A DNA stretch of 64,000 bases from positions 45,573 through 109,572 of the forward strand of contig PMOE01000072.1 in NCBI GenBank assembly GCA_003161575.1, in the 5' to 3' direction. Within the stretch, counting starts at the first letter, position 1. Each line of letters begins with the position of its first letter. The notes beneath the pieces were generated by a model, which ran no database searches, was not told where the DNA came from, and was given only the letters and a program-made list of their open reading frames with translations. The DNA comes from Acidimicrobiaceae bacterium. Its GTDB lineage: Bacteria; Actinomycetota; Acidimicrobiia; Acidimicrobiales; RAAP-2. Made by a program: the position numbers and the translations under genes. Shown here one piece after another: positions 9,903 through 39,643 of this stretch.

Positions 9903-11591
9903 TCACCCGTTGGTCGGGGCGTGGAGCAGGCCGAAGATGATCGAGTCGTAGAGCGCCTGCCAGCTCGCTTCGATGATGTTCTCTGAAACCCCGATGGTCG
10001 TCCACGTACGCTCCCCGTCCGTGCTGTCGACAAGCACGCGGGTGACCGCGCCGGTCCCGTGACCGGTGTCGAGCACACGAACTCGGTAATCGGTGAGGTG
10101 GACACGGGAAAGGGCCGGATAAAGCGAGCCGATGGCCTGGCGCAACGCCGCGTCAAGGGCGTTGACCGGGCCATTCCCCTCGGCGGTCGCAACCATCCGC
10201 TCGGTACCGATGCAAACTTTGACCGTGGCCTCGGTGGTCGCATCCGGGGCTCCAGCGAGACCCGGTGTCCCAACACCGGCCGAGCGGGCACCGTGGTCGG
10301 TGATCACTCGGAATGACTCCACACTGAAATAGTCGGGTTCCCAGCCAGCAGCCCGCCGGAGCAGGAGCTCTAAAGACCCGTCGGCCACTTCGAAGTGATA
10401 GCCCTCGTGCTCGAGTCGCTTGAGCTCGTCGAGTACCCGCCCCAATATTTCGCCGTCGAGCTCGAGACCCAGCTCAGTCGCCTTCATGTCAAGGGTCGAG
10501 CGACCCGATAGCTCTGAGACCACCACCCTCGGGCCGTTGCCAACCAAGGTTGGCTCGACATGTTCGTAGAGGTCCCGTCGGCGGGCCATCGCACTCGAAT
10601 GCAGGCCTGCCTTTGTGGCGAATACCGAGGAACCAACGTAAGGCTGCTGGGGATTCGGGGCGATATTGACAAGTTCGGCAATGTGGTGGGACACCGGCGT
10701 CAACCGCTCCAGCCGTTCGGGCGGAATGGTTCGGATGTTGAGTTTCATGGACAGGTTGGGGATGGCTGCGGAAAGGTCGGCATTGCCGGCCCGCTCCCCG
10801 TAACCGTTCACGCAACCCTGCACCTGGGTGGCACCAGCCTGCACCGCGGTGATCGAGTTGGCCACCGCGCACCCAGCGTCGTTGTGGCAGTGGATGCCGA
10901 CCTGAACATTGGAGCGGGAATGCACGTCGGCGACCGCTAGGCCAATATCGTCGGGGAGATTCCCGCCGTTGGTGTCACAGAGGACGACCGACTCGGCACC
11001 GGCCACCTCCGCAGCCTCTACAACGCGCAGTGCGAAGTCGCGATTGTGGTGATGGCCGTCGAAGAAATGCTCCGCGTCCACGAAAACCCGCTTGTCGTAG
11101 CGGCGGAGGAACTCCACCGAGTCGGCCACCATGGCCACCGCTTCGTCAAGGGAGGTCCGCAGGGCGTCGGTGACGTGGCGGTCCCAGCTCTTGGCCACAA
11201 TACAGACCACCGAGGTGTGGGCTTCGATCAGTTTTCGCAAAGTGTCATCGTCCTCCGTCCGCACCCCGGCCCGGCGGGTGGAGCCGAAGGCGACCAAAGT
11301 CGAGGTGGTGAGTTTCAGCTCGCTCGGGGCGCGTCGGAAGAATTCGTCATCTTTGGGGTTGGCACCCGGCCACCCACCCTCAATAAATGTGACACCGAGA
11401 TGGTCGAGCTGCTCGGCTACCCGCAGCTTGTCATTGACGGTCAGGGAGAGTCCCTCTTGCTGACTGCCGTCGCGCAGGGTGGTATCAAAGATGTCGACCG
11501 ACTCGGGCAGGTTCGGCAGTTCATAGCTGTGCGACACCGCCGAGTGGGAATGGTCCCCCGGGCCGTGATCGTGGAGATGGTCAGTCGACAT
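9903..11591 (-). CDS. cimA: (R)-citramalate synthase
   Basis: Condenses pyruvate and acetyl-CoA to citramalate, which opens the threonine-independent route to 2-ketobutyrate and isoleucine. The 562-residue product has the DIFDTTLRDGSQQEGLSL metal/substrate motif, the HCHNDAGCAVANS motif and a C-terminal LeuA-type regulatory domain (KVCIGTERMVATAEGNGPVNALDAALR). GGWPGANPKD is typical of the TIGR00977 citramalate synthase clade rather than of isopropylmalate synthase. The ATG at 11591 overlaps the end of ilvE by 11 bp and is followed by a His-rich tail before the catalytic domain. It is the last gene of leuB-ilvE-cimA, under the attenuator at 13688-13819. Confidence 0.9.
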   Translation of the reverse strand: MSTDHLHDHGPGDHSHSAVSHSYELPNLPESVDIFDTTLRDGSQQEGLSLTVNDKLRVAEQLDHLGVTFIEGGWPGANPKDDEFFRRAPSELKLTTSTLVAFGSTRRAGVRTEDDDTLRKLIEAHTSVVCIVAKSWDRHVTDALRTSLDEAVAMVADSVEFLRRYDKRVFVDAEHFFDGHHHNRDFALRVVEAAEVAGAESVVLCDTNGGNLPDDIGLAVADVHSRSNVQVGIHCHNDAGCAVANSITAVQAGATQVQGCVNGYGERAGNADLSAAIPNLSMKLNIRTIPPERLERLTPVSHHIAELVNIAPNPQQPYVGSSVFATKAGLHSSAMARRRDLYEHVEPTLVGNGPRVVVSELSGRSTLDMKATELGLELDGEILGRVLDELKRLEHEGYHFEVADGSLELLLRRAAGWEPDYFSVESFRVITDHGARSAGVGTPGLAGAPDATTEATVKVCIGTERMVATAEGNGPVNALDAALRQAIGSLYPALSRVHLTDYRVRVLDTGHGTGAVTRVLVDSTDGERTWTTIGVSENIIEASWQALYDSIIFGLLHAPTNG

Positions 11592-12510
11592 AGTCGAGCC
11601 AGTCCTTGTAGCGGTCAAGCTCTCCGCGCACCGCCGCGAAATACGTTTGCTGGATCTCCGTGGTGATCGGACCCGGCCTGCCGGTGCCGATCGGGCGGTC
11701 ATCGACGGCCCGAATCGGAACAACCTCGGCGGCCGTTCCAGTCAGGAACGCCTCGTCGGCCAGGTAGAGGTCAGTACGGATCAACTGGTCATGGGAGACC
11801 TCGACGCCGAGATCACGAGCGATTGCCTCGACCGAGTCCTGGGTGATCCCGTCGAGGGCCCCGGCATCCGAGGTCGGCGGGGTGATGAGCCGCCCGTCAC
11901 GCACGATGAAAATGTTCTCCCCCGTGCACTCGCTGACCCGGCCATCCGAGGCGAGCAGGATCGCCTCGTCGTATCCCCCCTTGATCGCCTCCACCTTGGC
12001 CAGAGAGGAGTTGACGTACATGCCGGTGCTCTTGGCCGCCGTCGGGACCGCGTTGGGGTCGTGGCGCCGCCACGAGCTGATCTTCACCGAAACGCCGTTG
12101 GCCACGCCTTCGTCGCCCAAATAGGTGCCCCACGGCCACGCGGCGACGGAGACGTTCACCGGGCAGGGCAGCGGGTTCAGGCCCATCTCGCCATAGCCCA
12201 AGTACACCAATGGCCGCAGGTAGCAGCCGTCGTGCAATTCGTTGACCCGCACCACCTCGCGGGTGGCCTCCACGATCTGATCCTCGGTAAAGGGAACGTC
12301 GATCATGAAGATCCGGGCGGAGGCAAACAGCCGGTGGATGTGGTCACCCAGCCGAAACACGGCCACGCCGTTCGAGGTCGGATAGGCGCGGATCCCCTCA
12401 AAGACGCCGGAGCCGTAGTGCATGGTGTGGGTCAGAACATGGACGGTGGCGTCGGCCCAATCGACGAGCTCGCCGTCCATCCAAATTTTCTCGGTCGGAG
12501 TGATGGACAC
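11581..12510 (-). CDS. ilvE: Branched-chain amino acid aminotransferase
   Basis: PLP enzyme that makes Leu, Ile and Val from their 2-keto acids. The 309 residues are the normal length for the class IV fold. The EKIWMDGELVDWADATVHVLTHTMHYGSGVFEGIRAY start is characteristic, the Schiff-base Lys is in AAKSTGMYVNSS, and ECTGENIFIV and FLTGTAAEVVPI bind the cofactor phosphate. Three bases separate it from leuB and it overlaps cimA, so the three genes form one operon feeding Leu and Ile synthesis. Confidence 0.95.
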   Translation of the reverse strand: MSITPTEKIWMDGELVDWADATVHVLTHTMHYGSGVFEGIRAYPTSNGVAVFRLGDHIHRLFASARIFMIDVPFTEDQIVEATREVVRVNELHDGCYLRPLVYLGYGEMGLNPLPCPVNVSVAAWPWGTYLGDEGVANGVSVKISSWRRHDPNAVPTAAKSTGMYVNSSLAKVEAIKGGYDEAILLASDGRVSECTGENIFIVRDGRLITPPTSDAGALDGITQDSVEAIARDLGVEVSHDQLIRTDLYLADEAFLTGTAAEVVPIRAVDDRPIGTGRPGPITTEIQQTYFAAVRGELDRYKDWLDYVD

Positions 12511-13557: not shown

Positions 13558-13687
13558 CGTGCTCGATCCCTTGCCTTCGATCCGTCCCTGCTCATTACCG
13601 CTCGATTCGTATCCGTCAGACGTCATGGTCCAATTCCCAGCAATTATCCCTGTTCCGGACCTATTTCAACCGGCGCGCCGGAAATTG

Positions 13688-13713
13688 AAAAAACCGCCCA
13701 CCAAATGGACGGT
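13688..13713 (-). terminator. Attenuator terminator before leuB
   Basis: On the minus strand ACCGTCC-ATTTGGT-GGGCGGT forms a 7-bp stem with one G-U pair, followed by TTTTTT. It lies between a short leader ORF and leuB, so it is a conditional (attenuation) terminator rather than the end of a gene. Confidence 0.75.
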
Positions 13714-13719
13714 CTTAGA

Positions 13720-13743
13720 GGCGCGCACCGGTTGGTACGCGCC
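13720..13743 (-). promoter_or_regulatory. Leader hairpin touching the leuB leader stop codon
   Basis: GGCGCGTACC-AACC-GGTGCGCGCC on the minus strand forms a 10-bp stem with one G-U pair. Its 5' arm shares a base with the leader TAG, so a ribosome halted or finishing there would decide whether the hairpin forms. The ilvB leader has the same arrangement and the leuA leader has a similar hairpin 1 bp past its stop codon. Confidence 0.65.
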
Positions 13744-13790
13744 TAGGCAATAATGACTACTGAGTACAGGGCCATGGTCATCACGGGCAT
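13743..13790 (-). CDS. Leader peptide of leuB-ilvE-cimA attenuator
   Basis: Fifteen-codon ORF encoding MPVMTMALYSVVIIA, ending in Val-Val-Ile-Ile-Ala just before a stable hairpin and terminator. This is the hallmark of ribosome-mediated attenuation by branched-chain aminoacyl-tRNA supply. The codons sense Val and Ile rather than Leu, which suits an operon holding ilvE and cimA. Translation may start at the first ATG or at the fourth codon (ATG, 13779-13781); the latter keeps the same 9-bp distance from the -10 as in the ilvB and leuA leaders. Confidence 0.75.
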   Translation of the reverse strand: MPVMTMALYSVVIIA

Positions 13791-13819
13791 AGTTTCCCCC
13801 AGAGATCGGGCGGAGTCAA
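13791..13819 (-). promoter_or_regulatory. Predicted promoter of leuB leader
   Basis: On the minus strand TTGACT (13814-13819) and GAAACT (13791-13796) are separated by 17 bp. The start point would fall close to the leader start codon, giving a very short or absent 5' untranslated region. The -10 is weak; support comes from identical geometry at the other two leaders. Confidence 0.5.
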
Positions 13820-37682: not shown

Positions 37683-39463
37683 TGGGCCCTCCGCTCCTGA
37701 TCGGGGTGAACCACGATGGCATCGTTGGAGGCACCAGCGGGCACCATTGGGTACACCTTCTCGAAGGCGTCGGTCCGGAAGTCGATGACCACCGGACGGT
37801 CGTCGATGGCGTTGGCCTTCTCGATGGCCGGGGTCACCTCCTCGGGCGATTCGGCTCGGATGCCCACACACCCCATGGCTTCGGCCCATTTGACGTAGTC
37901 GGGCAGATCGGGCGAGAGGTAGACCTCGGAGTACCGCTCTTCGTAGAACATCTCCTGCCACTGGCGGACCATGCCGAGATAGGCGTTGTTCAAGATGGCC
38001 ACCTTGATCGGGATCTGCTCAGCGGTGGCGGTGACCAGTTCCTGGGCCGTCATCTGGAAGCAGCCGTCCCCGTCGATGGCCCAGACGGTCCGGTCCGGTC
38101 GGCCCACCTTGGCCCCAATGGCGGCCGGAACGGCGAAGCCCATCGTGCCCGCGCCCCCAGAGTTGACCCAGGTGTAGGGATAGTCGAAGCGCCAGTACTG
38201 CGAGGCCCACATCTGGTGCTGGCCAACCCCGGCCACCACCACCGAGTCAGCCGGTGAGGCGTCCCGCAACGTCTCGACCACCATTTCGGGCTTGATCGGC
38301 CCGCCTTCGGTGTCCTCGTAATAGAGCGGGAACCGCTCCTGCCACCCGTGGAGCTGGTCCCACCACGCGTTGAGATCCGGTCGGGCCGCGGCGCGGCTAT
38401 TGGGGGCCGCGGTCGCACCGGCGGTTCCGGCCGGCCGGCCGCTCGAAAGACCGAGGGCATCGAGCGCGGTGAGCAGCTCTTCGATGACCAGGCGGCAGTC
38501 CCCGGCGATGCCCACGTCGGGCCGTCGCACCTTGCCCAGCTCGGCGGGGTCGATGTCCACATGGATCACCTTGGCGCCCGGAGCGAAGGCGTCGATCTTG
38601 CCGGTCACCCGGTCGTCGAATCGTGAACCCAGCGCAATCAAAAGATCCGAGCGCTGCATCGCGGTAACCGCCGTGTAGTTGCCGTGCATCCCGGGCATAC
38701 CCAGGCACAGCGCATGGGAGTCGGGGAAGGCACCGCGCGCCATGAGCGTGGTGACCACCGGGATCCCGGTGCGCTCGGCCAGCTCCCGCAGCGCATCGGC
38801 GGCCCTGGCCTTCAAGATGCCACCGCCGGCGTAGATGACCGGGCGCTCGGCGGCCAACAGCAACTCCGCCGCGGTCCGAACCTGCTCGGGGTCGCCCACC
38901 GAGACCGGGTGGTAGCCGGGAAGATCGAGGTCCTCGACCGAGGTGGGCCAATACCACTCCATGGTGGCGTTCGAGATGTCCTTGGGCATGTCGATGAGCA
39001 CGGGGCCGGGGCGCCCGGTCGTGGCCACATGGAAGGCGGCGGCCACCACCCGGGGAATGTCGTCGACATCTTTGATGAGCCAGTTGTGCTTGGTGATGCC
39101 CATGGTCACGCCGGTGATGTCGCACTCCTGGAAGGCGTCGGTGCCGATCGATTGGGTGGCCACTTGTCCGGACACCACCACGAGCGGCGTCGAGTCCATG
39201 TAGGCGTTGGACAGGGGGGTCACGATGTTGGTGGCCCCCGGACCGCTGGTCACGATGGCCACGCCTGGTCGCCCCGTCACCATGGCGTACCCCTCGGCCA
39301 TGTGGCCCGCCCCCTGCTCGTGGCGGACCAAGATGTGGCGGATGGAGGAGTCGATGATGGGGTCGTAGACCGGCAGGATGGCGCCGCCGGGGAGGCCGAA
39401 CATGACCTCGACGCCCTGCATCTCGAGGCTCTTGATGAGGGCCTGGGCTCCGGTGAGTCGCAT
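37679..39463 (-). CDS. ilvB: Acetolactate synthase large (catalytic) subunit
   Basis: TPP/FAD enzyme making acetolactate and acetohydroxybutyrate. The 594 residues have the catalytic Glu in [15 protein letters not shown], the FAD/central domain [14 protein letters not shown] and the TPP-Mg motif [43 protein letters not shown] precedes the ATG by about 7 bp. Preceded by a leader peptide and terminator (39533-39643) and followed by coupled ilvN. Confidence 0.97.
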
Positions 39464-39532: not shown

Positions 39533-39562
39533 GAATTGAAACGACCTCCCATCTGGGAGGCC
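39533..39562 (-). terminator. Attenuator terminator before ilvB
   Basis: On the minus strand GGCCTCCCA-GA-TGGGAGGTC forms a 9-bp stem with a 2-nt loop in the DNA (the RNA loop would open to 4 nt), allowing one G-U pair, followed by a short interrupted T-run (GTTTCAATT). The weak U-tract makes it less certain than the leuA and leuB terminators, but position and partner hairpin agree. Confidence 0.65.
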
Positions 39563-39567
39563 GGAAA

Positions 39568-39593
39568 GCGCGCGACGAGATGCGGTCGCGCGC
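39568..39593 (-). promoter_or_regulatory. Leader hairpin touching the ilvB leader stop codon
   Basis: GCGCGCGAC-CGCATCTC-GTCGCGCGC is a perfect 9-bp stem whose first base is the last base of the leader TAG. Same arrangement as in the leuB leader. Confidence 0.65.
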
Positions 39594-39643
39594 TAGCGAA
39601 CGAGTACCAGGGTGATTGGGCGGGTAAAGGCTGCTGTGCTCAT
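39593..39643 (-). CDS. ilvBNC leader peptide
   Basis: Sixteen-codon ORF, MSTAAFTRPITLVLVR, with Ile, Leu, Val, Leu, Val codons among its last seven, directly before a hairpin and terminator. It fits ribosome-mediated attenuation by all three branched-chain amino acids, known for ilvBNC in other Actinomycetota such as Corynebacterium. GGAG lies 3 bp before the ATG on the DNA but may be only partly transcribed. Confidence 0.82.
   Translation of the reverse strand: MSTAAFTRPITLVLVR

Follow-up and report, generated by a model that had tools for sequence, protein, structure and literature searches.

The DNA analysed here, a stretch of 64,000 nucleotides referred to as the window, carries on its minus strand an operon of leuB, ilvE and cimA preceded by a short leader ORF and two hairpins. 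A reading made from the sequence alone had proposed that this leader is an attenuator sensing valine and isoleucine. The locus raises two questions: why a leader in front of a leucine gene would carry valine and isoleucine codons, and how a ribosome on that leader could influence the terminator behind it. Our results support, at a probability of about 0.86, a ribosome-mediated transcription attenuator that would set the expression of leuB-ilvE-cimA according to the supply of valine and isoleucine. The support comes from the presence of the parts, from control codons matched to the downstream genes and from the geometry of the leader, and the regulation itself is predicted from these.

Promoter, leader and hairpins before leuB

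On the minus strand the elements follow each other in the 5′ to 3′ direction as -35 hexamer, -10 hexamer, leader ORF, first hairpin (P1), second hairpin (P2), leuB, ilvE and cimA:

13814..13819, minus strand: -35 hexamer TTGACT, recognized from the sequence
13791..13796, minus strand: -10 hexamer GAAACT, 17-nt spacer from the -35 hexamer, 9 nt ahead of the leader ATG
13743..13781, minus strand: leader ORF MTMALYSVVIIA with its stop, 12 codons and TAG, probably leaderless
13749..13760, minus strand: control codons GTA GTC ATT ATT (Val-Val-Ile-Ile), separated from the stop by one codon; 131 copies conserve Val/Ile here
13719..13744, minus strand: P1 hairpin AGGCGCGTACC / AACC / GGTGCGCGCCT, beginning inside the stop codon, identified by folding and covariation
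13688..13714, minus strand: P2 intrinsic terminator GACCGTCCAT TTG GTGGGCGGTT TTTT, 4 nt 3′ of P1
12514..13557, minus strand: leuB, 3-isopropylmalate dehydrogenase (NF002898, 488.7 bits, cut-off 393); the ORF may start at 13626
11581..12510, minus strand: ilvE, branched-chain aminotransferase (NF005146, 432 bits, cut-off 279)
9903..11723, minus strand: cimA, citramalate synthase (TIGR00977, 647 bits, cut-off 450); the gene probably starts within the listed ORF

All parts lie where the sequence-only reading had placed them, on the minus strand, with a leader ending in V-V-I-I-A-TAG followed by a hairpin and then a terminator. The ORF closes with ...SVVIIA-TAG, in which the TAG occupies 13745-13743. 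This stop codon stands as proposed, but the proposed start (MPVM...) lies too far upstream: its ATG at 13790-13788 touches the -10 hexamer GAAACT and is therefore probably 5′ of the transcript start. The usual start among relatives corresponds to the ATG at 13781-13779, 12 codons ahead of the stop. Twelve codons is also the most frequent leader length among 197 copies of the element, in which the distance from the end of the -10 hexamer to the leader start is mostly 6-10 nt, with a mode of 9 nt. A generic sigma-70 scan gave no match at the leader promoter, since the -10 hexamer is GAAACT. A strict arrangement of TTGAC, a spacer of 17 or 18 nt, xAxxxT and an in-frame start 6 to 12 nt further on is present in 105 of the 197 copies, compared with a mean of 0.16 in shuffled sequences. 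This promoter position implies that the leader mRNA is most likely leaderless, with its start codon placed at the 5′ end of the transcript or close to it. In keeping with the earlier proposal, no promoter-like site lies between terminator and gene in 123 copies.

Both proposed hairpins exist, each with a longer stem than had been described. P1, reported as a 10-bp hairpin at the stop codon, has a stem of 11 bp (13744-13734 with 13729-13719; dG -21.4 kcal/mol). The P2 stem comprises 10-12 bp rather than 7, with a core formed by 13714-13705 and 13701-13692 (dG -15.1), and it does end in the six Ts that had been noted (13693-13688). Folding of the 121-nt leader gives a z-score of -3.55, as good in 1 of 200 shuffles, and P1 and P2 coexist in its minimum-energy fold. 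Just 3′ of the T run lies a palindrome, CCGGCGCGCCGG (13681-13670), that can pair with the 3′ arm of P1. This pairing was rejected as a candidate alternative fold: it occurs in the window only, is absent in the relatives looked at, and would surround the terminator rather than break it.

The identities of leuB, ilvE and cimA given by the sequence-only reading are confirmed by NCBIfam equivalogs above cut-off. LeuB of the window is up to 82% identical to proteins from Acidimicrobiia MAGs and 69% identical to that of the cultured Acidithrix ferrooxidans. The gene order leuB-ilvE-cimA is found in 40 of the 41 element-bearing leuB loci with room for testing. LeuB, IlvE and CimA act jointly in isoleucine synthesis via citramalate. 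Since the three enzymes serve this route, valine and isoleucine control codons without leucine make sense, even though leuB belongs to leucine synthesis as well. A second LeuB-like protein (41% identity) is encoded elsewhere in the genome (G000:C37:7390-8433).

Distribution, covariation and control codons

A covariance model built from 46 sequences matches in 166 of 296 Acidimicrobiia genomes, and its matches outside the class are weak. The 197 distinct copies comprise 131 before leuB, 47 before cimA alone, 18 before ilvB and one unassigned. By a simple rule the element is found at 49 of the 79 LeuB loci examined, in addition to the window, and three further LeuB loci carry it on inspection (L022 from Acidithrix ferrooxidans, L023 and L025). 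Related genomes bear out the expectation of conserved Val/Ile codons and compensatory stem changes. In an alignment of 46 relatives 67 cells have changed on both sides of a pair, compared with 16.5 in shuffles, and none of 500 shuffles reaches 67. Across the whole structure 93.8% of cells are paired, and sliding by 1-3 columns drops pairing to 35-54%. The covariation of P1 is strong, exceeding all shuffles and slides. Rfam, including the T-box family, gave no match at gathering; the best hit at a relaxed threshold scored 18.2 bits, where the gathering score is 52.

Some candidates were set aside. The weak second matches of the model in the window's own genome (≤22 bits) were represented by the best one, which on inspection is not this kind of attenuator. 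A possible other leader before leuB in Ilumatobacteraceae, "TGGCGGCGTGGTAGTCGCCATTTTCTTT", appears from its position and conservation to belong to a divergent upstream gene. Four records (L005, L044, L057 and L058) titled Burkholderiales, Acidobacteriota or Bifidobacterium breve have Acidimicrobiia-like leuB loci, and are probably mislabelled MAGs. A P1 abutting the stop codon with an adjacent terminator is also seen outside the class, upstream of ilvB at L306, L311, L314, L317, L321 and L323 from other actinobacterial families, where a simple stem search gives a P1-P2 spacer of 0 nt. This similar layout before ilvB in some of the other families sampled suggests that the scaffold is probably older than Acidimicrobiia.

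The leader is a translatable ORF with clustered codons for amino acids of the pathway. At the four control positions of the leuB class, 254 of 524 codons (131 copies) are Ile, 184 are Val and 3 are Leu (48%, 35% and 0.6%), which upholds the claim that isoleucine and valine, not leucine, are read here. The codons are swapped accordingly in the other classes. Before cimA, 167 of 188 control codons are Ile (89%), typically as Ile-Ile-Ile-Ile, and before ilvB they are 24% Ile, 39% Val and 36% Leu (26 of 72; Fisher P 4e-23 for Leu in ilvB versus leuB). The cimA-only attenuator, with three or four consecutive Ile codons, is widespread in Acidimicrobiia (47 loci, e.g. L227, L238 and L247). The match between codons and gene also holds inside single genomes, 12 of which carry two classes, for example TIIIIA before cimA and LVLILM before ilvB. 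Rare synonyms are enriched at the control positions: GTA makes up 54% compared with 4.5% in leuB genes, and ATT 48% compared with 12%.

The window itself contains a second attenuator of the same design, before ilvB:

-35 at 39681-39676 and -10 at 39658-39653, minus strand: promoter of the ilvB leader
39593..39643, minus strand: leader MSTAAFTRPITLVLVR with its stop, control codons L-V-L-V
39538..39594, minus strand: P1 and P2 of the ilvB attenuator
37712..39457, minus strand: ilvB, acetolactate synthase large subunit (TIGR00118, 754 bits, cut-off 538; corresponding to G000:C32:83284-85029)

Its promoter has a 17-nt spacer and 9 nt from the -10 hexamer to the ATG, matching the leuB leader.

From ribosome position to terminator

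The geometry of the element is rigid. In all 196 parsed copies the distance between the start of P1 and the first base of the stop codon is 0-4 nt, and P2 follows P1 after 0-6 nt, with no shared nucleotides. Unlike the first hairpin of classical trp/thr/his-type attenuators, P1 neither includes nor overlaps the control codons, but lies after them. A bacterial ribosome footprint reaches about 12-15 nt past the first P-site base. A ribosome stalled at the Val/Ile codons therefore extends roughly as far as the stop codon and does not obstruct P1, while one whose A site holds the stop codon occludes P1's 5′ arm. By this geometry P1 marks the stalled ribosome.

The sequence-only reading implied classical antiterminator logic, which did not hold up. 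We compared the pairing of upstream segments with the 5′ arm of the terminator against shuffled sequences, with P1 as a positive control. The P1 pairing gives mean z-scores of -4.5 to -4.9, and all other segment pairings lie between -0.4 and +1.1 across the 196 copies. For pairing with the terminator arm, the 3′ arm of P1 has mean z-scores of +0.19, +0.71 and +1.13 in the three classes; the whole upstream region, tested against the terminator arm and loop, has +0.50, +0.53 and +0.71, with no copy out of 196 below -2. Leaders from E. coli used as controls gave -5.5 (thrL), -2.8 (hisL), -1.35 (leuL) and -1.1 (trpL); given the only mildly negative values for leu and trp, the test has little power on a single leader, but over 196 copies it is strong. 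A classical antiterminator that excludes the terminator by base pairing is therefore absent, and P1 and P2 are two independent hairpins placed side by side.

We propose the following mechanism. (a) Transcription would start at or within a few nucleotides of the leader start codon, and a 70S ribosome would load on the leaderless mRNA. (b) When charged tRNA-Val and tRNA-Ile are ample, the ribosome would reach the TAG with its footprint on the 5′ arm of P1, so that P1 is blocked and P2 terminates. (c) When valine or isoleucine is short, the ribosome would wait at V-V-I-I with its front edge at about the stop codon, where P1 begins, and P1 would form. (d) P1, whose stem of roughly 10 bp lies 0-6 nt 5′ of P2, might then hinder completion of the P2 stem in the exit channel of RNA polymerase, giving more read-through. 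Structure prediction does not explain the step from ribosome position to read-through, as P1 and P2 fold together without mutual exclusion by pairing. Step (d) is an inference, as the search for another base pairing able to provide this link found none. We tentatively favour the view that P1 obstructs P2 sterically or by contact, since this has the right sign and explains both why P1 abuts its neighbours on either side and why cross-pairing is lacking.

The next explanation has the opposite sign, and we consider it unlikely. P1 would form only once the ribosome has gone, and would protect P2 or pause the polymerase and thereby favour termination; a stall on the last Ile codon would open the base of P1 and reduce termination. 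The coexistence of P1 and P2 in the minimum-energy fold agrees with this, and P1 is placed as expected for a pause hairpin that gives the ribosome time to catch up. However, P1 would be disrupted still further by a ribosome that has reached the stop codon than by a stalled one, which would leave regulation to fast release alone. Rather improbable is a classical three-part attenuator, in which a stalled ribosome would free the 3′ arm of P1 for a 2:3 antiterminator pairing with P2's 5′ arm. Weak nascent pairings of this kind do occur, for example between CGGU and ACCG in the window at about -3.6 kcal/mol, but this and the other segment pairings tried are near chance or worse, no upstream segment in the 196 copies pairs with the terminator arm beyond shuffles, and the footprint geometry leaves P1 largely intact beside a stalled ribosome, which is the wrong sign.

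The P2 stem has a further property. An intrinsic terminator consisting of P2 and a T run lies between leader and first gene, with a mean energy of about -16 kcal/mol that is alike in the leuB, cimA and ilvB classes. In 129 of 131 leuB-class copies the stem core reads CCGNCC..GGNCGG, and its central pair is non-Watson-Crick in 118 of the 129. As a general motif of its own genome this stem pattern occurs once, at this site. The leuB-class stem is kept in sequence more than a plain terminator requires, and this fits none of the proposed mechanisms well. It could point to a protein that recognizes the stem and thereby determines termination, the leader peptide playing a secondary part, and a conserved terminator without antiterminator in the rimP leader has been interpreted as protein-read (PMC2965389). 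Such a reader is nevertheless hard to credit here, as gene-matched control codons and rigid stop-P1 geometry require no protein, and the cimA and ilvB copies differ from the leuB class in stem sequence, yet have an equal mean P2 energy. Finally, an unregulated pair of hairpins that serves as terminator or insulator, with an ORF that arose by chance, is very improbable in view of the class-wide conservation of codons and promoter spacing and the covariation.

If P1 does hinder P2, ribosome-mediated attenuation would come in a second physical type, used across a bacterial class and re-targeted by codon swaps. The position of the ribosome might gate a free-standing hairpin at the stop codon, which in turn could act on the terminator next to it, within the polymerase, through contact or steric exclusion and without alternative pairing; we put this forward as a tentative proposal. 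Should experiments confirm that an antiterminator is absent, the textbook requirement for mutually exclusive RNA folds would be incomplete, and attenuator searches that require an antiterminator would overlook such elements. The element is also a natural experiment: a single RNA scaffold is combined with Ile, Val/Ile or Leu/Val/Ile codons that match the operon behind it.

Comparison with known attenuators

The papers searched, mostly from outside subscription journals, describe no element of this kind ahead of leuB-ilvE-cimA or cimA, and none from Acidimicrobiia. Leader-peptide attenuation would extend to the citramalate route to isoleucine and to Acidimicrobiia. The E. coli leaders thrL, hisL, leuL and trpL share with the present element a leader peptide with control codons, an intrinsic terminator and an amino-acid biosynthesis operon. 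Those leaders, however, contain an antiterminator that can pair with the terminator arm (z -1.1 to -5.5), and here there is none. In classical leaders the antiterminator forms beside the stalled ribosome, as P1 would here. The LEU element of actinobacterial leuA (PMC1262725) is also a leader ORF before a leucine-pathway gene, but it combines Leu codons with a pseudoknot that pairs with the Shine-Dalgarno box, whereas here there are Val/Ile codons and a terminator, and a run of Leu codons is lacking (3 of 524).

The closest relatives in design precede ilvB. In the ilvBNC attenuator of C. glutamicum and the ilvB-II motif (PMC10272879, PMC11857589), the transcript starts 1 nt from the start codon and the antiterminator and terminator bases are adjacent, as are P1 and P2. 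There, however, the stems share a GCC trinucleotide and the hairpin spans the uORF, while the present P1 starts at the stop codon and shares nothing with P2; in the copies P1 and P2 have no boundary GCC in common, and P1 does not span the uORF. Leader-peptide attenuators of ilvB are known in Actinobacteria (Seliverstov 2005, PMC1262725; M. tuberculosis ilvB1, PMC13236596). The M. tuberculosis ilvB1 attenuator has the codons LVVI and reporter support, and a ribosome at the stop codon has been proposed to mask its anti-terminator (PMC13236596). That model invokes mutually exclusive folds, whereas the folds of the Acidimicrobiia element are independent. Codons for branched-chain amino acids shortly before the stop, an intrinsic terminator and ribosome-at-stop logic are shared with the actinobacterial ilvB attenuators; unlike in these, the first genes here also include leuB-ilvE-cimA or cimA, each with matched control codons.
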